Shown: positions 17,726 through 34,144 of the stretch, piece after piece
Layout of the letters: each line of letters starts with the position of its first letter
Numbering within the stretch: position 1 is the stretch's first letter
Source of the DNA: Candidatus Bathyarchaeota archaeon
GTDB taxonomy: Archaea > Thermoproteota > Bathyarchaeia > Bathyarchaeales > Bathycorpusculaceae
Direction: 5' to 3'
Length of the DNA: 43,691 nt
NCBI GenBank assembly: GCA_018396955.1
Contig: JAGTQI010000004.1
Location: 1 to 43,691, forward strand
Notes under the pieces: generated by a model
What the model saw: the letters and a program-made list of their open reading frames with translations, nothing else
Told to the model about the DNA's origin: nothing
Databases searched by the model: none
Made by a program: the position numbers and the translations under genes

Positions 17726-18763
17726 CTAGGCGAGTTTTTCTCCACAGTTTGGACAGAATTTGGCTCCGGCTTGAATCTCGCTTCCGCACTTTGGACACTT
17801 GACGGTTGATTGCAGTGGATTTCCACAGTTTAGGCAGAATCTGGCTCCAGCAGGGTTTAATGTTCCACATTTGGGACAGTTAACTCCCCCAACAGCTTGC
17901 AGTGGCGCACCACAGTTGCTGCAGAACTTTGCCGTCTGCGGATTCTGGAAATTACATTTTGGACACAACACCATAGGCACCGCCGGTGCAGGCGCCGGTG
18001 CAGGCTGAAGCACTTGTGGAAGAATCACCGCTCCAGCTCCAACCGCCGCTCCAGGACTCTTTGATAGGCTTTCGCTTGACTTTTGAACAGTCTCCATTCG
18101 TAGAACTTCGGTTGCTGCAACACCAGTCTTTACGTAGAACAACCTATCCCTCCATTCGGGCGTTGTGTCAATTCCCTCAAATTTAACGTCTATTAGCTCG
18201 AGACCTACCCTTGAAAAGGCATCAAAAAGGGCGTTTTTAGCCACAAGGCTTGTTTCATCCAGCTTACCATAAACCTCTGCAAGGGAATACTGGCTTAATG
18301 TGTCGATGAGCCTCTCGTTGAAGTATCCCCTCAAAAAGTCTTGAAGTTTGTCGGTTGAGAAGGCTCCCTGCCCGCCAACCACCTCGTTAACGAAGAGGTT
18401 TGGCTCTTCAACCCTAAACCAGAAGCTTCCAAAGAATTTTATTGGGGCAAGCTCCTTCGTCTGGCTTTGAGCGCCAAACCTACCCTGAAACTGTTTAAGG
18501 GAAATGAAGATTACAGCGCATCTGAAAGGAACCTTGTCAAACCCGGCGATTTTGGATAATACCTTTGTGAGAAGCGGAAGATTCGCCGTTGTCAAAACGT
18601 GGCGCCCAGCCCTAAAAACGTCGTAGGCTTTCCCATCTCTGAAGAAGACTGCAGCTTCGTACTCGTGGACTATTAGGTTGTCTCCCCACGCTATCTCTTC
18701 ATTGGGGTATCTCCAAACTATGTCTCCTTCCCTTGCACCAGTCCACTCTATAACTTTAGGCAT
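17726..18763 (-). CDS. SPFH-domain protein with three C-terminal zinc ribbons (YdjI-like)
   Basis: A 345-residue protein. Residues 1 to about 230 form an SPFH/stomatin-like domain of the type found in YdjI and virion-core-like proteins. The N-terminus is VIEWTGAREGDIVWRYPNEEI, with NLIVHEYEAAVFFRDGKA next. An Ala/Pro-rich linker (about residues 255-270) follows, then three four-cysteine zinc ribbons of the CPKC-x-CxNCG type. A perfect GGAGGTGA lies 8 bases before the ATG. SPFH proteins assemble on membranes and organise partners; zinc ribbons may bind clients or nucleic acid. It is the last gene of a four-gene run with a coiled-coil protein, a small membrane protein and an unknown protein. 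Confidence 0.85.
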   Translation of the reverse strand: MPKVIEWTGAREGDIVWRYPNEEIAWGDNLIVHEYEAAVFFRDGKAYDVFRAGRHVLTTANLPLLTKVLSKIAGFDKVPFRCAVIFISLKQFQGRFGAQSQTKELAPIKFFGSFWFRVEEPNLFVNEVVGGQGAFSTDKLQDFLRGYFNERLIDTLSQYSLAEVYGKLDETSLVAKNALFDAFSRVGLELIDVKFEGIDTTPEWRDRLFYVKTGVAATEVLRMETVQKSSESLSKSPGAAVGAGAVILPQVLQPAPAPAPAVPMVLCPKCNFQNPQTAKFCSNCGAPLQAVGGVNCPKCGTLNPAGARFCLNCGNPLQSTVKCPKCGSEIQAGAKFCPNCGEKLA

Positions 18764-19767: not shown

Positions 19768-20460
19768 TCACTTTATGATTAGCGGGTATATTTCTTTAGC
19801 CACGTATTCTAGGTATTTCTCCTTATCCGTAAGGTTGAATATGGTTACTGAGGCGTCCCTGGTTATGCCAACCACATAGCCGTACTCCCTTGATCTAGCT
19901 ACAATGTACCAAAGATCGCCATGCTTGCAATAGTCCTCAAAAAGCGAAGTGTTCACCAAGTCCGGTCCATAAAGCGAAAGCTTATTCACGTTGGGGATGT
20001 CAACATTGTCAAAAAACGTGATTTTTGTGTCTTCAGGGTTTTTTAGATGGAACTCGCGGAGGATTTCAGGCGGTATGCGGGCTTCCACTACACCGCCGAC
20101 ACGATCGAAGAGAATTTCGCTTAGTTTGTTGGCTATAAAGTTGGCTATGCGCTTCTTCTCAACAACAGTTAGGAATGTGGCTTCATCCAGTTTGGAAAAG
20201 CTGAAGAGGGCTTCAACCGTGCGGGGTAGGGGCGCGACCTTGCCTCTATGGAAGACGTGGATTATGTAGTCGTGAGAGTAGACGCCCCTAAGCATGTTCT
20301 CATCTGGTTTTGGGAGAAGCCCAACAACCTCTGTCACAAGCTTAAACTTGTAGTCGCCCTCCTCATAAGATTCTTCAACACGATAACCTTCAAGCCTAGA
20401 AGCCACATCATCCAGTGGGAGCGGTTCTGAAAGCCTAAAAACTTTGCCGGCAACAACCAT
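19768..20460 (-). CDS. Conserved-looking hypothetical protein, first gene of the SPFH cassette
   Basis: A 230-residue soluble protein that I do not recognise. It has a mixed alpha/beta composition with strands such as YIIHVFHRGKVAPLP, a helical segment (FLTVVEKKRIANFIANKLSEIL) and a beta-rich C-terminal part (LWYIVARSREYGYVVGITRDASVTIF). There is no signal peptide or membrane segment. It opens the same-strand series that continues with the membrane, coiled-coil and SPFH genes, and the 70-base gap allows one transcript. Confidence 0.7.
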   Translation of the reverse strand: MVVAGKVFRLSEPLPLDDVASRLEGYRVEESYEEGDYKFKLVTEVVGLLPKPDENMLRGVYSHDYIIHVFHRGKVAPLPRTVEALFSFSKLDEATFLTVVEKKRIANFIANKLSEILFDRVGGVVEARIPPEILREFHLKNPEDTKITFFDNVDIPNVNKLSLYGPDLVNTSLFEDYCKHGDLWYIVARSREYGYVVGITRDASVTIFNLTDKEKYLEYVAKEIYPLIIK

Positions 20461-21901: not shown

Positions 21902-23824
21902 ATGCTGATCAGCGAGGTGATCCTTGAAAACTTCATGAGTTATGAGTATGCCAGGGTGCCCCTTAAACCAGGTGTGAATGTAATTTGCGGTCCCAATGGT
22001 GCTGGGAAGTCCTCGCTTTTATTGGCTATTTCTGTGGCTCTTGGACAGTCCTATACTGAACGTTCTAGGAAGCTCAGCGACCTGATCCGTTGGGGTAAGG
22101 ACCAAGCTCGTGTGACGCTTATACTGGATAATTCTAAGCGTGGTGGTAAGCGTCCAGTTCCAAAGTTTAATAAGGACCAGATTTTCTTGACGCGTGTTTT
22201 GAGGCGGGATGGCAAGTACTGGTTTGAGTTGGAGAACCGTGCCGCCTCAAAACAAGATGTGGAAAGGCTTTTAGCCAAATTGGGCGTTGATCCGGACAAC
22301 ATGCTTATTATTATGCATCAGAACATGGTGGAACAGTTTACGATTCTTTCTCCACAGGATAAGCTCCGCATGGTGGAGGCGGCTGTTGGGCTTGAGGCTT
22401 ACCGCGAAAACGTTCTGGAAGCCCAGAAAAAGCTCACCCGCATACTAAGCCAAGAAGAGTCTATAAGCAAGCTTTTGGAGTCTGCAGAGCAGACCCTTAA
22501 CTACTGGAGGGAGCAGTACGAAAGGTTTCAAGAGAAGAAGCAGTTGATGGCTAAGAAACGCTTTCTTGAGCGGGAACTTGCATGGGCTGAGGTAAACCGC
22601 CGAGAAGACATTGCCAAGGATTTGGAGGCAAAACTCGAGAAGGAACTATCCCTTTTAAGGCAGATTGAGGGCGAAGCCAAAACAGCCCAAGAACAGCTCA
22701 AAAATCATCAAAGCCAACTTGAAAGGCTTAAGGGCGAATGGAAGAGAAGCCTCAGCGAAACCATAAACCTTGAAAGGGAGAAGGCTGGAAGTCAAGCTAC
22801 AATTTCGCTTTGTGAACAGCTAATGGCAGAGGCTTCCTTCATAGAGAACGAAGCCCAAAGCGGCAAACATCCCTTGAAGCTTTTGAAAGCTGAAAATCTA
22901 AAGGAGCTTATAGAAAACTCGCGGTTGAAGGTTTCAAAACTTGATCAGGAGTTGGGCAGAAAACTTTCTGAGACGCGGATTCTTGAAGAGCAGATGGAAA
23001 AAGTTGGAAGCCAAATTCTTGACACTCGCGTTAGGCTTGCACTTTTAAATTATCGAATGGAAGATGCAAAGTCGAATATTGAGGATTTAGAGGAAGCCCT
23101 TAAAGATGCAAAAGCCCAGCTGGAAGCAGCTATTAAAAGGGCTGAGGAGACTGGTCCCAGAATCGCCGTCATAAAGAGTGTTGGCGAAATATTAGATGAA
23201 ATTCGTGTTACTGATGGGCATTTGGCTGCTTTGGCTGGCGTTTCTGAAGATGTGGAGCGCATGTACGAGTCTTATTCACAGCTTTATTTGGAGCTTAAGG
23301 AGAAAGCCCGACTGGCGGCTGAAAACCGGGAAAAAGCCCTAGAAGAGGTTAAGGCACGGATGCAAGCATGGCGAACAGTGATTAAGAGCCTTTTAGACCG
23401 TGTAAACTTGGAGTATCGGAAGATTTTGGCAAATTCTCAGGCTTTGGGCGAAGTTAAGCTTGTGAATGAGCATGACATTGAGGCGGCTGGACTTGAAATC
23501 CTCGTGGGCTTTAGAGGCGGAAAGCCAGTGCCGCTTAACGCTTACACGCAGAGCGGTGGCGAAAGGACAACAGCCACCATGAGCTTCTTGCTGGCTTTGC
23601 AGCAGCATGTGCGCTCGCCCTTCCGTGCGGTGGACGAGTATGACGTGCACATGGACCCGAAGAACCGCGAACTAATAGCTCAAATATTGATTTCAACGGT
23701 TGAGGATGCGAATGCGCAATATGTGGTGATTACTCCAAGCCATGTGACCTTCGCAAAGGACAACGTGCACATTATTACTGTTCAAAACGTTGAGGGAAAA
23801 TCCATAATTAAAGAGGTCACCTAA
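21902..23824 (+). CDS. Smc5-like SMC ATPase without a recognisable hinge
   Basis: A 640-residue SMC-family ATPase. The N-terminal head has Walker A GPNGAGKSS (residues 30-38) and the Q-loop IIMHQN (136-141), followed by VEQFTILSPQDKL, which parallels the Smc5 segment after the Q-loop. Coiled coil fills about 165-310 and 335-510. The C-terminal head carries GLEILVGFRGG, the ABC signature TQSGGERTTATM (549-560), Walker B PFRAVDEYDVHMDPKNRE (573-590) and QYVVITP. The SGGER-x6-L-x-LQ, PFR-x-VDE-x3-MDP-x-NR and ITP features are those of Smc5/6, especially Smc5, rather than Smc1-4, Rad50 or bacterial SMC. No globular hinge of about 150 residues and no CxxC zinc hook lies between the coils, so the arms are short. 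It overlaps the next gene by one base (TAATG). It should bind DNA and use ATP to hold or compact it. Confidence 0.85.
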   Translation: MLISEVILENFMSYEYARVPLKPGVNVICGPNGAGKSSLLLAISVALGQSYTERSRKLSDLIRWGKDQARVTLILDNSKRGGKRPVPKFNKDQIFLTRVLRRDGKYWFELENRAASKQDVERLLAKLGVDPDNMLIIMHQNMVEQFTILSPQDKLRMVEAAVGLEAYRENVLEAQKKLTRILSQEESISKLLESAEQTLNYWREQYERFQEKKQLMAKKRFLERELAWAEVNRREDIAKDLEAKLEKELSLLRQIEGEAKTAQEQLKNHQSQLERLKGEWKRSLSETINLEREKAGSQATISLCEQLMAEASFIENEAQSGKHPLKLLKAENLKELIENSRLKVSKLDQELGRKLSETRILEEQMEKVGSQILDTRVRLALLNYRMEDAKSNIEDLEEALKDAKAQLEAAIKRAEETGPRIAVIKSVGEILDEIRVTDGHLAALAGVSEDVERMYESYSQLYLELKEKARLAAENREKALEEVKARMQAWRTVIKSLLDRVNLEYRKILANSQALGEVKLVNEHDIEAAGLEILVGFRGGKPVPLNAYTQSGGERTTATMSFLLALQQHVRSPFRAVDEYDVHMDPKNRELIAQILISTVEDANAQYVVITPSHVTFAKDNVHIITVQNVEGKSIIKEVT

Positions 23825-24651
23825 TGCAGTCAAAGAGGGAACGTGCTAAAATTGGGCGGGAAAGGCTTCAGCGGGTTATTGAGATGTGTAAGGCTGTTGA
23901 GGAACGCTCCTTAGACCCTTTTCTGGTAGATGTGGACGAAATAATAAGGGTTGTTAGAGAGTTTTTCCCGGAATGGGAGCAGCCCGAAGACCTATGCCTA
24001 GACGCTGAGGCAATAAACCGCCTAGCATCGGTTGTTAGGCTTCAGAGCGAATGGGTTAAGCATCGTTCAACGTTGCTTTATACGGACCCCTTCCTGTTAG
24101 AGGAGAAGATTAAACGCATGGAGAAGGATGCCATTGTGGAGGCGTTTCTGGGCGCTTGGCACCCAATAGTTGAGTTTGAGCAGATTTCGCTTCACAGCCT
24201 AAAAGAGGCACTTCGGTACTGGGTAAGCCTTCCACCGCTGAAAGACAGATGGAAGGAGTTCCCCATGCCGGAGGAGGCTGGTGGAGCCGCCACCCGAGAG
24301 GAGCTTATAAGGCTGAGGATTTTGCAGGATAAAGCCTTCACAGAGGAGTTGGAAAACTTCTGGAATGAGTTAAAAAAGCTGGTTAGCGAGGAGGGTGAAG
24401 ATGGCAGAATCAGGTACTGGGATTTTGTTGGCGCCGAAACCTATGAGGAGACAACCCACAGAGCTTTCATGACAAGCTTTCTCGTAACTTATGGTTATGC
24501 AACCCTCGAAGTTCACCCGTTGGAGGAGGAAATTTTCATAAAGCCCTTTGATAGGCAGCAGAGGCGCATAGCCAAAAAACAGCTGGTTTCAATTCCTATA
24601 GCCATAACTGTTGAAGAGTGGGAAAAATGGAGGAGAGGAGCAAAAAAGTGA
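23824..24651 (+). CDS. Nse4-like kleisin subunit of an archaeal Smc5/6-type complex
   Basis: A 275-residue protein. The C-terminal region (about 195-272) reads IRYWDFVGAETYEETTHRAF, then MTSFLVTYGYATLEV, then QLVSIPIAITVEEWEKW. The same order of motifs ends Nse4 proteins: a hydrophobic strand with FV, a T-x-EN-x-F segment, a SFL-x2-DG helix, a strand, and a final DWE helix. The N-terminal part (DPFLVDVDEIIRVV, residues 31-44) suits the SMC-neck-binding half of a kleisin. Nse4 bridges the SMC heads and carries Nse1/Nse3. ATG 23824 overlaps the stop of the SMC gene and the next gene overlaps this one, so all three are cotranslated. A generic ScpA-type kleisin is the alternative; the C-terminal motifs favour Nse4. 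Confidence 0.75.
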   Translation: MQSKRERAKIGRERLQRVIEMCKAVEERSLDPFLVDVDEIIRVVREFFPEWEQPEDLCLDAEAINRLASVVRLQSEWVKHRSTLLYTDPFLLEEKIKRMEKDAIVEAFLGAWHPIVEFEQISLHSLKEALRYWVSLPPLKDRWKEFPMPEEAGGAATREELIRLRILQDKAFTEELENFWNELKKLVSEEGEDGRIRYWDFVGAETYEETTHRAFMTSFLVTYGYATLEVHPLEEEIFIKPFDRQQRRIAKKQLVSIPIAITVEEWEKWRRGAKK

Positions 24652-25205
24652 GTAAGAGGAAAGCCGTTTACGCCAGCAAGATGAAACGCGCCGTCCACAT
24701 GCTCTTCTACCGCAGACACAAGAAGCCCGGAGTGAAAGGCTGGGAGCTGCGAAAGGCTTTGGGCGCTGACTACCCAAAGGTTTTAAGCATATTGGATGAG
24801 TACTTGAAGCCGCTGGACTTACAGGTTAAAATGGTCTTTGAAGAAGAAAAACCAAAATCTGAAAAGCCAGCATTGGAAGAGTTGGATAAGGCGAGGTTTT
24901 ACATAACCTTAAGGGGCGATTTGACGCCTAAAGAGGCTAAGATGGTCGGATGGCGAATAGACGACTTGGCGGGACTAGCCATAACAATAGCCTACATAAT
25001 ATCGAAAAAGGGGAAGGCGCCCCGCAAAGAGGTGGAAGAGCTTTTAAGAGAGAAGCTGCCCGGCTGGAAGGTGGGCTTAAACATAGACCGTTACATACGC
25101 TATGGCTATTTAACCCAGGACGAAAATGAACAATTGTATTTGGACTGGCGAACCCGAGCAGAAGTAGACCAAAAAGCACTCATAGACCTAATCTTATCCA
25201 AGTAG
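24648..25205 (+). CDS. Nse3/MAGE-like tandem winged-helix (KITE) subunit
   Basis: A 185-residue protein with two winged-helix domains (about 1-90 and 105-185). The first, GVKGWELRKALGADYPKVL followed by a YITL strand, parallels the first domain of human NSE3. In the second, GLAITIAYIISKKGKAPRKE matches the GLL-x4-G-x-IF-x-KGN segment of MAGE proteins. The end YLDWRTRAEVDQKALIDLI matches the MAGE ending YEF-x-WGPR-x3-ETSKMKVL. KITE subunits bind the kleisin and DNA. The GTG start at 24648 overlaps the Nse4-like stop (GTGA) and has GGAGAGGAG 7 bases upstream; an ATG at 24618 is in frame but has no such site. The 3' end overlaps a convergent pseudogene by 26 bases. Confidence 0.75.
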   Translation: MSKRKAVYASKMKRAVHMLFYRRHKKPGVKGWELRKALGADYPKVLSILDEYLKPLDLQVKMVFEEEKPKSEKPALEELDKARFYITLRGDLTPKEAKMVGWRIDDLAGLAITIAYIISKKGKAPRKEVEELLREKLPGWKVGLNIDRYIRYGYLTQDENEQLYLDWRTRAEVDQKALIDLILSK

Positions 25206-26630: not shown

Positions 26631-26962
26631 TCGCTTCCTCCTTCGGCTTCCTCTGTTTCCTTTGACTCCACTAATCTAAGAATTTCTGAATCGCCGGGCT
26701 CTCTTATAGTTAACGCTGAAACAAGGAAGGGTTTCCCACAAACAGCAGCTAAATCCGTTGACAAGCCCCTATAAACAATTAATGGGATTTTTGAAAGCTT
26801 GCAGTAATATTCTAGGTCGCTGCGGATTTCAGCTGGACAGTTGGACGCCACAATAATCATCTTCGCCTTCCCAGTTTTCGCACTTTGAATTGCTGAGTTT
26901 GCACCAAAGGAAACCTTGCCGGTTTTCACGGCTGTTGAGATAGCCTTGTCTATGTCCATCAT
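26627..26962 (-). CDS. rpl30e: Ribosomal protein L30e
   Basis: A 111-residue L7Ae/L30e-fold ribosomal protein. GKVSFGANSAIQSAKTGKAKMIIVASN is the RNA-binding start of the fold, and LVYRGLSTDL-type sequence (VYRGLSTDLAAVCGKPF) completes it. The highly acidic tail is longer than in many homologues. It overlaps rpoA upstream and nusA downstream by four bases each, so the whole cluster is translationally coupled. Confidence 0.95.
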   Translation of the reverse strand: MMDIDKAISTAVKTGKVSFGANSAIQSAKTGKAKMIIVASNCPAEIRSDLEYYCKLSKIPLIVYRGLSTDLAAVCGKPFLVSALTIREPGDSEILRLVESKETEEAEGGSE

Positions 26963-29900
26963 TTGTTCTCCCTCTTAAGCTCAGAAGTGGACATAAACAA
27001 CTCCACAAGCCCGGTGCCGACAGGTATGGACTGCCCAACAATAACGTTTTCAGTGACGCCTTCCAACGGGTCGCTTTCGCCTCTAATGGCAGCCTCAACA
27101 ATATTTGGAACAGTAATCTCGAAGGCTGCCCTCGCCAAGACGCTTGCCTTTTTGCCGCTGACACCGTGCCTGCCTATCTGCTGCACCTCGCCAGTTGCAG
27201 TCATCATATCAGCCACAAGCATGACATGACGGATGTCAACGTCCAAGCCTTGCTCCTCCAAAACGCTCTTAGCCTCTTGTATAAGGACGTTTCTGGCGGC
27301 TTCAATGCCCAAGGTTTTGGCTATTTCATGAACATTGTTGGTTGTTGTCCTCGTGGCGTCAACGCCGTAAACCTCCAGAACTTTGGGCAGATTCGAGCCA
27401 TCAGTACGTATAACCCATTCGCCCTGCTCCTCGGTGACCAGAACACGCTTTATCCCTGGAACACCCTTAATATAAAGTGATGAAACCCTGTCAAGTAGCC
27501 TTTTAAGGGCTTCCGGCTTCTTTGGTTTTATATGGATGCTGTTTCCTGTTATTTTTACGGTGCAGTTGGCAATCTTAACTCTCTCCTTAAGCTCTTGTAT
27601 TGTTACGCCCCTGTCCTCCATCATAGCCTTATTCAACTCAACGACGATTTCTCCGCGCACAGGGTCTTGGTATATGGCCTGCGCAATGTTTTCCAGTATG
27701 GTGCAAAGTATGTTTCTAGCTATTTTGACTGCTGCCTCCCTGCTCTTGCGGTGCTTCTCGTCCAGGTAGATGACCATTATAGGCGTTGATGGAACTCTTC
27801 TGGCGTCGACAATTTCTATGAGCCGCGGCAAGCCCAAAGTCACGTTCTGTTCCCTAACACCGGCATAGTGGAAAGTCCTAAGGGTCATCTGTGTACCCGG
27901 CTCGCCTATAGACTGGGCGGAAACTATGCCTACGGCTTCGCCCGGCTCCATTAAGGCGCGCTTATAATGTTCGACTGTCAGCTCTATGGCTTTGTCAACG
28001 CCCTCTTTACTGAGCTTCGCCTCTGTTAGGCTCTGCTTCAACTCGCTTATCAGCAGTGGCGTGAGCTGATCTTCAACGGCTTTAAGCTTCTCCTTAATGT
28101 ATTTCGGAGGCGCCGGCTTACCCTTCCCCATGCCGATTCTTATCTGCTCAACAAGGCGGCTGACGTTCACAGCCTTTCCATGATCGCTTTTGGCAGGGTC
28201 AACGCCGTCCTCGCCGTACTTGAACTGGATTATGTCGCCAGTTGAGCTTCTAACAGTTCCGTCATATTCTAGGCGGAGATGCTCTAAAGCGTTGATTAGG
28301 CGTCTCTGCATGTAACCGCTCTGCTGCGTTCTAACAGCCGTGTCCACAAGCCCCTCACGTCCTCCCATGGCGTGGAAGAAGAATTCTATGGCGTCTAGGC
28401 CCTTCTGGTAGGAGGAGTAGACAAACCCCCTAGCTTTGGGAGATGGGTCGCCGAATTTGAAGTGGGGTAGTGTTCTCCCCAGATAGCCACGCATTATACG
28501 TTTTCCACGCACAGCTTGCTGTCCAACACAGGCGCTCATCTGCCCAATATTTAAGCTTGAACCCCTAGCGCCAGTTCGCGTCATTACTATGCCGGAATTT
28601 TCAAGGGTAAAGTCTTCATCAGCGATTTTTCCAGATTCATCTCTGGCTTTAGCCAGCTCGTTCATAACATAGATTTCAAAAGAATCCTCAAGGGTTTGTC
28701 CGGGAAGTCTAGGAAGTGTGCCGTCACGGTAACTCTTTATAAGCTCCTCAATTCTTTTTTCAACCTTCTCCGTTATCCTCTTTATCTTTGCCTCCGCCTG
28801 CGGAGAAAGCACCAGCTCATCATAGGAGTAGGAGAATCCCCGCATTGTTATGAAAAGCTTCAAAAGCCTCGTAATTTTGTTTATAAATTCGCGTCCAACA
28901 GCTGTTCCATAGTCCTTAATTATTCTGTGGAGGAGGCTTTCGGACTGCTCAGCCCCTACAGCTTTTCTGTCAATAACACCGCATATGAGTTGACCATTCT
29001 TGACAACCACGTAGGCGTCGTAGGGACACTCCTCCTTTAAGCATTTGGCACATCCACGGCAAGTGTTCGCCTTCAAAACATAGTTTAAACCTTTTGGCAA
29101 GAATAGGCTGAAGATTTGTTTGCCGCTCCACATGGGCTGAGGCTCTTTTATTTGGGGTTCTGGAAGCGGCCCCTCATAGCCAGCCGCGATTAAGAGGCGG
29201 CTCACCTCGTCTTTTGTTAAGTAGTTTGACTTCCTCGTGAAGAGATAAGCAGCCGTAATAAAGTCTCTAATAGCCCCAATTATTGGACCGCCAAAGCGTG
29301 GGGAAAGTATTTGATCTTGAACCTGCATTAGGAGGCGGGCTTCTGTTTGGGCTTCCTCGCTTTGTGGTATGTGGAGGTTCATCTCGTCCCCGTCGAAGTC
29401 CGCATTATAAGGCGGACAGACGCAAAGGTGTAGGCGGAAAGTCTTGTAGGGCAAGACCCGCACATAATGCGCCATAATGGACATTCTGTGGAGGGACGGT
29501 TGACGGTTGAAAATGGCTATATCACCATTTCTTAAGTGACGCTCAACAATGTAGCCTGGCTCCAAAGACTCGGCAATTTTCTCCCTGTCAGTGACAAACT
29601 CAAGCCTAATCCTTTTGCCGTCTGGGCGGATAATGTAGAGGGCGCCCGGATATTTAAACGGACCATTTATGACAAGTTTCCGCATCTCCTCAATGTTCCA
29701 AGAGGTCACCTTTTCGGGAACTGAAAGCCTCATGGCAACATCCAGCGGAACGCCAACCTCGTTTATGTCGAGGTTTGGATCTGGAGAAATCACCGTGCGA
29801 GCTGAGAAGTCAACACGCTTGCCTGAAAGGTTACTTCTAAACCTTCCCTCCTTGCCCTTAAGCCTCTGGGAAAGCGTTTTAAGGGCTCTTCCAGAACGGT

Positions 29901-30777
29901 GTCTTGCTGGTGGAATGCCAGAAGCCTCATTGTTAAAGTAAGTTGTCACATGATACTGGAGAAGCTCTGACAGGTCTTGAATTATGAGGGTGGGAGCGCC
30001 AGCTTCCATGTTCTCTTTTAATCGCTGGTTTATGCGGATTATGTCCACAAGCTTGTGGGTTAAGTCGTCTTCTGAGCGTATGCCAGACTCCAAAGTAATG
30101 GAGGGCCGCACATATACTGGCGGAACAGGCAAGACCTGTAGAACCATCCATTCTGGACGAGCCGTTTTGGGTTCTAAACCCAAAAGCTCCAAATCATCAT
30201 TCGGTATACGTTCAAGTCTCTCCCTAACCATGCTGGGAGTTAGAGGCTGAGAGCCGCCGGGAATTTCTTCACTAAACTTTGTGGGTTTTTCAAAGGTTAT
30301 CTTGTATTGGGGAGCATTACAATGGGGACAAGTCTTAGCCCTTATCTCTTGAGTTATCCGCCTAAACATTTCATCTGGAACTGATCCCAGCAGCTGGCGG
30401 GTTCTATCAATTCTCGCCCTTAACTTTTTAACGGCGTCTTCCGGGAGCAGAATCCGCCCGCAGTTTCGGCATGTGACCCTAAGAAGGTCGTAGATTATTT
30501 TTGCAAATTCGATGTGGATTATTGGGACAGCTAGTTCTATATGCCCAAAATGTCCAGGGCAGCGTATAGCTGTGTTGCCGCATGTCTTGCACCTCTGTCT
30601 AGGCTCAAGAGTGCCGAGCCTCCCATCCATAAGTCCAGCGGTTATTGGGGCGCCATCCTCGTCGTAGGTGTCAGGCGTCTGAATTTCAACCACTGAAAGT
30701 TTCCGTATTTCCTGAGGAGAGAGTAAACCGAAATGGATTTCGTCAACAACCTTATGGGCGACTTCCTCAACAGCCAT
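26959..30777 (-). CDS. rpoA: RNA polymerase subunit A, A' and A'' in one chain
   Basis: The largest subunit of archaeal RNA polymerase, 1272 residues. In most archaea it is split into RpoA' and RpoA''; here both are in one uninterrupted frame, as reported for Thaumarchaeota and several TACK relatives. Near the N-terminus is the zinc site CKTCGNTAIRCPGHFGHIE. At about residue 460 is the catalytic NADFDGDEMNLH, whose three aspartates hold the active-site magnesium. SAQSIGEPGTQMTLRTFHYAG marks the trigger-loop region at the start of the A'' part. An extra cysteine cluster (CRGCAKCLKEEC, about residues 571-582) lies in the funnel region. It starts one base after rpoB. Confidence 0.98.
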   Translation of the reverse strand: MAVEEVAHKVVDEIHFGLLSPQEIRKLSVVEIQTPDTYDEDGAPITAGLMDGRLGTLEPRQRCKTCGNTAIRCPGHFGHIELAVPIIHIEFAKIIYDLLRVTCRNCGRILLPEDAVKKLRARIDRTRQLLGSVPDEMFRRITQEIRAKTCPHCNAPQYKITFEKPTKFSEEIPGGSQPLTPSMVRERLERIPNDDLELLGLEPKTARPEWMVLQVLPVPPVYVRPSITLESGIRSEDDLTHKLVDIIRINQRLKENMEAGAPTLIIQDLSELLQYHVTTYFNNEASGIPPARHRSGRALKTLSQRLKGKEGRFRSNLSGKRVDFSARTVISPDPNLDINEVGVPLDVAMRLSVPEKVTSWNIEEMRKLVINGPFKYPGALYIIRPDGKRIRLEFVTDREKIAESLEPGYIVERHLRNGDIAIFNRQPSLHRMSIMAHYVRVLPYKTFRLHLCVCPPYNADFDGDEMNLHIPQSEEAQTEARLLMQVQDQILSPRFGGPIIGAIRDFITAAYLFTRKSNYLTKDEVSRLLIAAGYEGPLPEPQIKEPQPMWSGKQIFSLFLPKGLNYVLKANTCRGCAKCLKEECPYDAYVVVKNGQLICGVIDRKAVGAEQSESLLHRIIKDYGTAVGREFINKITRLLKLFITMRGFSYSYDELVLSPQAEAKIKRITEKVEKRIEELIKSYRDGTLPRLPGQTLEDSFEIYVMNELAKARDESGKIADEDFTLENSGIVMTRTGARGSSLNIGQMSACVGQQAVRGKRIMRGYLGRTLPHFKFGDPSPKARGFVYSSYQKGLDAIEFFFHAMGGREGLVDTAVRTQQSGYMQRRLINALEHLRLEYDGTVRSSTGDIIQFKYGEDGVDPAKSDHGKAVNVSRLVEQIRIGMGKGKPAPPKYIKEKLKAVEDQLTPLLISELKQSLTEAKLSKEGVDKAIELTVEHYKRALMEPGEAVGIVSAQSIGEPGTQMTLRTFHYAGVREQNVTLGLPRLIEIVDARRVPSTPIMVIYLDEKHRKSREAAVKIARNILCTILENIAQAIYQDPVRGEIVVELNKAMMEDRGVTIQELKERVKIANCTVKITGNSIHIKPKKPEALKRLLDRVSSLYIKGVPGIKRVLVTEEQGEWVIRTDGSNLPKVLEVYGVDATRTTTNNVHEIAKTLGIEAARNVLIQEAKSVLEEQGLDVDIRHVMLVADMMTATGEVQQIGRHGVSGKKASVLARAAFEITVPNIVEAAIRGESDPLEGVTENVIVGQSIPVGTGLVELFMSTSELKRENK

Positions 30778-30778
30778 T

Positions 30779-33700
30779 TTAAGCCCTCTCCTTAAGCTTT
30801 AACTTTGGCGCCACACAGAGGCTCATCAGTTCTTGGAGGAGAAGCTTAAAAGCATAGGAAACTATTACGGGTGAGATTTTAGCTTTATCCTCGCATATCC
30901 TGCAGATATACTTCCTCTGTTTTAGGTCGTAGTAGGCTATGTAGCCGCAGTTCTCACAAACATAGAGCGTATACTTGTCGGATTCCTCTAAAAGTCTGTC
31001 GCGGAGTAGCATGGCAGCCCCATGCCCGATGAGGCAGTCTCTTTCCATCTCGCCGAAGCGCAGTCCACCTCCGCGGGCTCTACCTTCCGTCGGCTGCCTC
31101 GTTAACATTTGCACTTGTCCTCTGGCTCTTGCGTGGATTTTGTCTGCAACCATATGGTGGAGCTTCTGATAGTAGACTATGCCTACGAAAATGTCTGCCA
31201 CAAACTTTTCACCTGTCACACCGTTGTAGAAGACCTCTTTTCCAGTGTGGCTGAAGCCGAGCTTTATTAGGGTTTTTCTCAGGTCTTCAGCCTTCTCATT
31301 TGAGAAGGGTGTTCCGTCAACCGGTCTGCCTCGTAGAGCTGCAACTTTTCCAGCTATGGATTCAATGAACTGTCCAATTGTCATTCTTGACGGGATAGCG
31401 TGGGGATTAATTATAATGTCTGGGACTATGCCGTCCTCTGTGAAGGGCATATCCTCCTGTGGTACAATAAGCCCGATAACGCCTTTCTGTCCGTGGCGGG
31501 ATGCAAACTTGTCGCCAAGCTCCGGGATTCTCTGGTCTCTAACCCTAACCTTGACAAGCTTGCTACCTTCACCAGACTCCGTTATGAAGACAGCGTCAAC
31601 AATTCCGGTTTCTGATGGACGCATGTCCACGGAAGTGTCCCGCATTGATGGACCTTTAACCTCAAACTCTTTGTATTCTTCAAGGAATCTCGGTGGGCTT
31701 GTTCTTCCTATAAGAACGTCTCCGCCGGCGACTTGAGCTTCTAGGCTTATTATGCCGTCGGGCTCCAGAAGCCTATAATATTGTTCGCCTCTGAAGCCTC
31801 TTATTCCAGGTTCTGGCACGACGAATTTGTCTTTTAGTCCGCCCATGTATTGGCGGCATTCAGCCTCGTATATGCGGTAAAATGTGGAGCGTCCTAAGCC
31901 CCTTTCAATTGAGGCTTTGTTGAAGATTAGGGCGTCCTCCATGTTATAGCCTTCATAGGATAAAACAGCCACAATGCAGTTCTGCCCGGATGGGCGGAGC
32001 TTATAGCCCATAACCTCCATTAAGGCTGTTTCAACCAGTGGCGTCTGGGGATAATGGAGTATGTGGGACCTTGAATCAACACGTAATGGGAAGTTAGTGG
32101 CGAAAACGCCGAGAGCTTGCTTGGCCATAGCCGCCTGATAAGAGTTGCGGGGTGACTGGTTGTGTTCCGCGTATGGTATTGTTGAGGCGCAAATCCCGAG
32201 AATTGTGTAAGTTGCAATTTCCAGATGGGTGTGCTCCGGGGTTAGTTCTTCAATGTTTATGGCGACATAGGCATTTTCCTCCTCTTCAGCATCCAAATAC
32301 TCGATTATGCCGTTCTTAACGAGGTCCTCCCATGACCACTCGCCGCGGGTAATCTTTTCTATGTGTTCCGGCTGAAGCCTTGAAACGCCATTTTCAACTA
32401 TTATTAATGGTCTTCTAACCCTTCCCTCATCACAGTTAACATAGATTTCCTCTCTTTCGCCATACTCTTTGGAGAAGTATGCGATGTTGACTTCTGTTGA
32501 TATTTCTCCCATACGTCGCCGTTGCCTAAACTCGTTAACAACTTTTTCTGGAGCGGTACAATAGCCCACTATTGTTCCGTCCACGAAGACTTTTGCGCCG
32601 TAACGCTTCAGCGTTTCATTCGCCTCATATACTGGCGTGACGCCCATGCTGAACAATATTTGCTTGATCTTCTCTGGATTAACACCGACAGATATGGAAG
32701 CAGACAATGCTAGATTCTTGACTAAGCCGCAATTTGAGCCTTCCGGCGTCTCGTTTGGGCATAGGCGCCCCCAATGGGTTGAGTGCAAGTCTCTAGCCTC
32801 AAAGTTTGGCTGGCTTCTGCTAAGCGGAGATTGAAGCCTTCTCAAGTGGCTTAAGGTGGAAAGGTAATTTGTTCTGTCGAGGAGTTGTGTTACACCGACG
32901 CGTCCCCTTCCCCAGTTTCCAGTGGCAAGCGCATGTTGAAGCCTCTCGGTTATTATTCCGGGGCGAACAGCTGCAGAAACCGTAATTATTGGTCCTTTAA
33001 CGCCTATCCTTTCAAGCTGGTATTTAATGTCTCTTACAAGGTTTCTGAAGGCTACACGGAACAAGTCTGCTAGGAGTGGCCCCGCAAGCCTCAAACGCTT
33101 GTTCTTAAAGTGGTCTTTGTCGTCTGGTTTTCGCCTTCCAAGTTTCAGCTCTATAACTCTGCATGCCATCTCACCCAAGAATATGGCTTTGTCGCGGCGG
33201 CTTTGACTTGTTCTTCCAAGATGGGGCAAGAAGTTTTTGTCTATGGCTGCCTCAGCCTTCTGAATGCGGTATTCTTCAACCTGCCCGTGGGCTACACGGT
33301 TTCCTATATATAATATCGCATCTCTAACAGTGTCGACGCCTATAGCCTTTTCAAAGGATGGTTCCAGCTCACTTTGAATTTCCTCATCAACAGAAACAGC
33401 TTCAGCAATCTCCTTGTCAGACTCAAGCCCCAGGGCACGCATAACAATGACAAAGGGGACTTCTGTCGGCACTCCAGGCATTGTGACGTATAAGGCGCCG
33501 TCAGACTTCATTTTCAGCTCTATCCTCGCCCTAAAGCCAACGGTCGTGGAGAATAGCTTGGCTTGATAAACTGGCGCGGCGCCCTTCTCGTCTATATCAA
33601 CGATTATGCGGTTTGGAGCCAAGTCCTCCATAGCCACAATAACACGTTCAGAACCGTTAACAATGAAGTAGCCGCCGGGGTCGTCTGGGTCTTCGCCGAC

Positions 33701-34144
33701 AGCTATCAGTTCTTCTCGGGAAAGCTGAGACAAGAAGCAAAGTTTAGATTTTAGCATTACTGGGATGTTGCCAATAAAAACGAGTTCTGTGTCCTGTTCT
33801 CTGCCGTCCACAACTGGCGTCATTTCAAGGGCAATGGGCGCCGCGTAAGTGAGGTTGCGGAGCCTAGCCTCTATTGGGTAGATTTCATGTTTTGTGCCGT
33901 CAACCTCCGTCACATATGGACCGCTAATCCGCGTTTGTGGGTCAATTATCCAGACTTGCCCAAGCTTAACGGTGTATGGGCATTCTGGAACCTCTATTGG
34001 GATTTCTCCAACCTCGTCTATAACCTCTTGTAAGCCGTGGTCTATGAACTCGTTGTAGGAGTCTAAGTGCTGGCGGACCAGCCCCTTCTCTCTAAAGAAA
34101 GCCTTTAAAAGCGTATTAACATCTTCTTTTGAAAGCTTAACCAT
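30779..34144 (-). CDS. rpoB: RNA polymerase subunit B (unsplit)
   Basis: The second-largest RNA polymerase subunit, 1121 residues in one chain, without the B'/B'' split of methanogens and halophiles. Visible are [31 protein letters not shown] near the N-terminus, the fork-loop segment [22 protein letters not shown], and the hybrid-binding [12 protein letters not shown] near residue 876. [11 protein letters not shown] and the C-terminal zinc site CENCGY-x10-CRIC are also present. It is the first gene of rpoB-rpoA-rpl30e-nusA. In most archaea rpoH lies immediately upstream; here that place is taken by a non-coding stretch and a tRNA gene on the other strand. Confidence 0.98.

Follow-up and report, generated by a model that had tools for sequence, protein, structure and literature searches.

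A probable Smc5/6-type operon in a bathyarchaeal genome, with a hinge-less SMC, an Nse4-like kleisin and a single KITE

We analysed a stretch of 43,691 nucleotides, hereafter the window, from contig JAGTQI010000004.1 of a Candidatus Bathyarchaeota archaeon, a metagenome-assembled genome of 1.37 Mb and 91% completeness whose source organism appears to be a Bathyarchaeia-type member of the Thermoproteota. The subject is an operon of only three genes at 21902-25205 on the forward strand, encoding a hinge-less, short-armed SMC (structural maintenance of chromosomes) ATPase of the Smc5/6 type (640 aa), an Nse4-like kleisin (275 aa) and a KITE protein of the Nse1/Nse3 type (185-195 aa). The original prediction, made from the letters alone, had read these genes as Smc5, Nse4 and Nse3, joined by overlaps of one and four bases. 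All three overlapping open reading frames (ORFs) were recovered at the coordinates it gave, both overlaps are present, and every motif quoted for the three proteins was found. The SMC gene (21902..23824) ends in the TAA at 23822-23824, and the ATG of the kleisin gene (23824..24651) begins at 23824, i.e., one base is shared. The TGA of the kleisin gene (24649-24651) overlaps by four bases with the third gene (24648..25205), which starts with GTG at 24648 and encodes 185 aa; an alternative GTG start at 24618 yields 195 aa.

The SMC protein carries the Walker A motif GPNGAGKS (residues 30-37, 21989..22012), the ABC signature SGGER (residues 551-555, 23552..23566) and the Walker B motif with the D-loop, FRAVDEYDVHMD (residues 574-585, 23621..23656), all on the forward strand. 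A family profile was built from 34 relatives drawn from across the phylum. Residues K36, S37, Q140, S551, G552, E554, R555, R575, D578, E579, H583, D585 and proline 612 are invariant in all 34 of these diverse proteins, and an active ATPase is expected because every ATPase residue checked is retained. When the window SMC was searched alone, its best PDB match was yeast Smc5 (5e-30), followed by Smc6 and human SMC5/6, with archaeal and bacterial SMC behind. The ten best PDB matches of the family profile were all eukaryotic Smc5 or Smc6 (195-242 bits), and Pyrococcus Smc (180 bits), Smc2 (159), Smc3 (157) and Rad50 (50) came lower. The other, canonical SMC encoded by this genome behaved differently: its leading matches were archaeal SMC (Pyrococcus Smc at 362 bits), Smc4 (about 200) and Smc3, with Smc5 far lower at only 46.

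In a tree of SMC head domains, with the eukaryotic heads taken from PDB alignments and Smc1 and Smc2 left out, the archaeal family, Smc5/6 and an Asgard group were separated from canonical SMC and Smc3/4 with support of 97/87, which rose to 100/100 when the three longest branches were removed. Forcing the archaeal family together with canonical SMC, against all eukaryotic rows, cost 75 log-likelihood units and was rejected by the approximately unbiased (AU) test (p-AU 7e-9). The proline of the 'ITP' motif is found in every row of the Smc5/6 type, including the Asgard rows, and in no canonical row. The head tree, proposed as a check in the original prediction, thus grouped the protein with Smc5/6 and not with ordinary SMC, and Rad50 stood far down the PDB ranking. 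The placement on the Smc5/6 branch holds; the narrower label of Smc5 does not, since in archaea this one protein corresponds to Smc5 and Smc6 alike. One Smc5/6-type SMC gene was found in the genome.

The family also stands apart in its architecture. No match to SMC_hinge was obtained for any of the 34 SMC relatives (572-756 aa); the same hinge library was positive for the canonical SMC of this genome (9.7e-23) and for the Asgard relative L198 (1.3e-13). Between the head and the C-terminal joint there are 192-316 residues for both arms plus the tip among the 34 relatives, and 271 in the window SMC; each arm comprises approximately 100-155 residues. The Asgard relatives L198 and L200 have about 830-840 aa (the hinge was checked in L198) and lie outside the archaeal-plus-eukaryotic group in the tree; therefore, the simplest reading is that the hinge was lost in the Thermoproteota line.

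For the kleisin and the KITE, single-sequence searches of Pfam and NCBIfam gave little signal, and PDB profiles made from close relatives produced chance matches only; alignments across the phylum were therefore needed. Nse4_C was matched by 27 of the 37 kleisin relatives (best 5.6e-9), and 3 of the 8 relatives checked singly were above its curated cut-off. In a six-frame search of the whole genome with Nse4_C at E<=10, the window kleisin was the sole match. Against the PDB, the kleisin family profile found yeast Nse4 (6.8e-7) and human NSE4B/EID3 (4.3e-5), then the C-terminal domains of archaeal ScpA (0.004). The AlphaFold model (predicted local distance difference test score, pLDDT, 79.6) has a helical domain at the N-terminus and a winged helix at the C-terminus (approximately residues 169-241). 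Its two top Foldseek matches in the PDB come from Smc5/6 structures, 7qcd_F (Nse4) and 7tve_G, and matches 3-13 are ScpA, cohesin, condensin or Smc5/6 entries. The reading of the second gene as Nse4 is borne out by this ordering, with Nse4 ahead of ScpA both by sequence profile and by fold. Several kleisin matches contain one in-frame TGA, namely, the kleisin region of locus L105 and those of genomes G380, G123, G135, G365 and G191.

The KITE protein was modelled as a tandem winged helix (mean pLDDT 92.6, predicted template modelling score 0.81). Foldseek placed first MAGE-G1/NSE-1 (5hvq) and the Nse1-Nse3-Nse4 complex (7dg2), with ScpB and MukE after them. In weak Pfam matches, some relatives resemble MAGE (best 2.8e-4) and others SMC_Nse1 (best 2.2e-4). 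The tandem winged helix and the leading NSE1/MAGE folds agree with the proposed Nse3 identity; the operon has one KITE gene, and its product is better named a single KITE of the Nse1/Nse3 type than Nse3. Such a double resemblance, weak as the sequence signals are, fits the appearance expected of a KITE older than the duplication of Nse1 and Nse3.

The set is widespread. The kleisin was found in 157 of 398 sampled genomes of the phylum, and the order SMC-kleisin-KITE, which the original prediction proposed to look for in other archaea, is kept in 36 of 40 fetched loci from more than 30 families. For three Thermoproteota loci without a nearby SMC gene, a match to the family of the window SMC lies elsewhere in the genome. 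The P-loop pattern is so general that canonical SMC dominated a scan of named genomes with the SMC alignment. In the Halobacteriota, strong kleisin matches were seen in 14 of 148 genomes; most of the weak ones (E approximately 1e-4 to 1e-11, in the C-terminal region) are probably ordinary ScpA. An SMC-family match was found elsewhere in all 8 Halobacteriota genomes checked, one of them a 62-residue fragment at a contig end; at loci L224-L229 of this phylum the kleisin and KITE genes are still adjacent, and the SMC gene lies elsewhere in the genome. Asgard operons with the same order of SMC, kleisin and KITE were found at L198-L200, L230 and L231, with a hinge present in L198. A second Asgard type, at L201 (3327-8799) and L207 (893-4063), combines a 1057-aa SMC with an SSGQKQ-type signature, a 322-aa ORF, a kleisin (0.0013 against Nse4_C in L201) and a 176-aa ORF; its two extra ORFs could be two KITEs, like Nse1 and Nse3. 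A Lokiarchaeal SMC (L107) was dropped as a relative because its best PDB matches were canonical SMC and Smc3/4 and its branch was long; in the phylum of this locus, matches to the kleisin or KITE profiles occur in about 3% of 227 genomes, the SMC-kleisin-KITE operons above and the L201 type among them.

The genome also encodes an ordinary condensin. One operon on another contig (C33) contains a canonical 1182-aa SMC with a hinge, ScpA (PF02616, E 3.2e-5) and ScpB (PF04079, E 1.6e-37). The statement that no ScpA/ScpB set is seen is thus true of the window, but not of the genome.

Upstream of the operon, on the reverse strand, a divergent gene of 230 aa (19768..20460) belongs to a family with members close to the operon at 13 of 40 loci, this one included, and divergent from it in many lineages. 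Of 101 genomes, 48 contain both this family and the kleisin, and the exceptions number 5 and 2 (Fisher 1.8e-20, shared ancestry being ignored). One exception (G043) has only a partial SMC, a 438-residue open frame, and its kleisin may therefore be lost to an assembly gap. Searches of Pfam and the PDB with this family gave no good match and no match, respectively. From its neighbourhood and co-occurrence, the protein is a candidate accessory factor. The other neighbours of the operon are housekeeping genes such as RNA polymerase: Rpo1 is a single uninterrupted 1272-aa gene adjoining Rpo2 (26959-34144, reverse strand), in which A' and A'' appear fused. An SPFH/Band 7 protein with zinc ribbons (17726-18763, reverse strand) has a counterpart at the corresponding position of the related locus L106. 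In approximately 15 of 40 loci the operon is accompanied by an Lhr-type DNA helicase gene, mostly convergent with the operon and abutting its 3' end (e.g., L074, L077, L079, L083, L085, L086, L092, L093, L096 and L102), and this adjacency suggests a link to DNA repair; no Lhr-type helicase gene was seen within the window.

Subunit identities, intact ATPase motifs, a conserved operon, a missing hinge and coexistence with condensin are the computed results, from which we infer assembly, stoichiometry, DNA clamping and a role in repair. We assign a probability of roughly 0.8 to the reading that the products of the operon form an archaeal SMC-kleisin-KITE complex of the Smc5/6 type, serving chromosome maintenance or repair as a short tether or as a DNA clamp gated by ATP. 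In the proposed mechanism, the SMC would form a homodimer, both heads coming from one gene; the Nse4-like kleisin would bridge the heads, and the KITE would bind the kleisin, probably as a dimer. Once ATP has engaged both heads, these would close round double-stranded DNA together with the kleisin and the KITE, like the clamp of heads and Nse1/3/4 in eukaryotic Smc5/6, in structures of which heads and Nse subunits are described as clamping DNA (PMC9191643). A clamp or short-range tether, working beside the separate SMC-ScpA-ScpB condensin, is put forward as the main role because the SMC has no hinge and its arms are so short; the clamp is favoured since the counterparts of the Smc5/6 clamp are present, whereas the hinge, long arms and regulatory ligases are missing. 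A fuller picture, in which a hinge-less, short-armed Smc5/6-type clamp, not a loop-extruding ring, combines a single SMC with a pre-duplication KITE and with a previously undescribed partner of about 228 aa encoded divergently upstream, is offered tentatively.

Several points weigh against the clamp or tether interpretation. The window kleisin itself is under the Nse4_C cut-off (E 0.011, 16.4 bits, cut-off 26 bits) and only its relatives pass, and the likeness of the KITE to MAGE/Nse1 in sequence is weak and mostly under Pfam cut-offs. The trees rest on about 340 columns of the head alignment, contain long eukaryotic branches and do not include Smc1 or Smc2. A classical closed SMC ring is not obvious when the hinge is missing. 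It should be noted that complex formation, DNA binding and ATP hydrolysis are all predicted computationally. As to the outcomes that would have spoken for another system, the SMC head did not fall with Rad50 or ordinary SMC, and its partners did not come out with ScpA/ScpB or with unrelated folds; Foldseek of the partners led to Nse4 and to NSE1/MAGE complexes first. The Smc5/6-type interpretation of the original prediction is therefore supported.

The alternative that survives best keeps the Smc5/6-type complex and assigns it mainly to defence against plasmids or viruses, as in bacterial Wadjet or when human Smc5/6 acts against viral DNA outside the chromosomes. Circular DNA is a target of restriction by related KITE-SMC complexes (PMC10586767), and loss of the operon is patchy inside some families. 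We nevertheless regard this as improbable: the operon lacks a JetD-like nuclease, no PADLOC model was matched by the kleisin or the KITE, the operon is single-copy with a fixed order conserved in more than 30 families, and it is flanked by housekeeping genes or, outside this lineage, by the Lhr helicase gene. Considerably less probable is that the operon is an ordinary archaeal condensin (Smc-ScpA-ScpB) altered by divergence and shortening of its genes. In its favour, the members of the kleisin and KITE families are all distantly related, ScpA C-terminal domains stand second to Nse4 in the kleisin profile, and ScpB appears lower down in the KITE fold list; however, the E-value of Nse4 is about four orders of magnitude better than that of ScpA, a tree that unites the heads with canonical SMC and sets eukaryotic SMCs apart was rejected, and the condensin operon exists intact elsewhere in the genome. 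Finally, a small SMC-related protein of the Rad50, arcadin-4 or coalescin (ASRP) kind beside unrelated winged-helix proteins would have a comparable short length and weak NCBIfam matches in its favour (ASRP 73.7 bits, arcadin-4 55, Rad50 82), but is scarcely credible given that these scores are far under their cut-offs (300 bits for ASRP) and under SMC_prok_A (171 bits), that the arm region in the 34 relatives has no zinc-hook CxxC, that Rad50 ranks so low in the PDB and that the partners match folds of Nse4 and Nse1/3.

Among eukaryotic SMC complexes, Smc5/6, which protects the genome in human and yeast cells, is understood least, and there is debate about its ancestry. If the Smc5/6-type reading is right, archaea possess a Smc5/6 core made up of three genes, alongside a separate condensin, and the split between condensin/cohesin-type and Smc5/6-type complexes would therefore be older than eukaryotes. 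A KITE that matches both Nse1 and Nse3 fits one ancestor that was duplicated later. A three-protein system without a hinge, SUMO ligase or Nse5/6 could show for which Smc5/6 activities the heads, the kleisin and the KITE are sufficient, and could test the need of a hinge for loop extrusion; the origin of Smc5/6 would thus be open to study in a much simpler version, in a set present across many archaea.

The SMC part is not new, because an archaeal SMC falling with Smc5 and Smc6 has been published as 'SMC5/6-related' (PMC9389158, citing Yoshinaga and Inagaki 2021), and the window SMC very probably belongs to the same group. The passage on this group in PMC9389158 concerns the SMC protein only, mentioning neither kleisin/KITE partners nor a missing hinge. 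A preprint on the prokaryotic roots of SMC complexes (van Hooff et al. 2024, 10.1101/2024.01.07.573240), cited in PMC12188315, may well describe the kleisin and KITE partners, so that priority is uncertain. Where PMC7055376 and PMC9764264 discuss the partners of archaeal SMC, these are treated as ScpA/ScpB only. The hinge-less form and the neighbour gene at 19768-20460 look less explored.

Among known systems, Wadjet/MksBEFG (JetABCD) has kleisin, KITE and SMC in common with the window operon, which lacks the JetD nuclease and whose SMC matches JetC weakly (34 bits). ASRP, the coalescin ClsN and Sph are also short archaeal proteins of the SMC superfamily, but belong to another branch by NCBIfam score; coalescin is described as having a zinc hook (PMC9764264), whereas the window SMC family has none. 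Canonical archaeal Smc-ScpA(-ScpB) follows the same SMC-kleisin-KITE plan with a hinge-bearing SMC, here of 1182 aa and encoded in a separate operon of the same genome. With eukaryotic Smc5/6 (Smc5, Smc6, Nse4, Nse1, Nse3), the archaeal operon has in common the SMC heads, the Nse4-type kleisin, the Nse1/Nse3-type KITE and the motifs QSGGER, PFRxVDE and ITP. The Nse1 RING, the Nse2 SUMO ligase and Nse5/6 are absent among the operon proteins, the genome itself not having been searched for them. The eukaryotic complex has two SMCs and two KITEs, the archaeal operon one of each, and the archaeal SMC lacks a hinge and has much shorter arms; with its one SMC and one KITE gene, the operon is an ancestral-like or reduced relative of eukaryotic Smc5/6 and not that complex itself.

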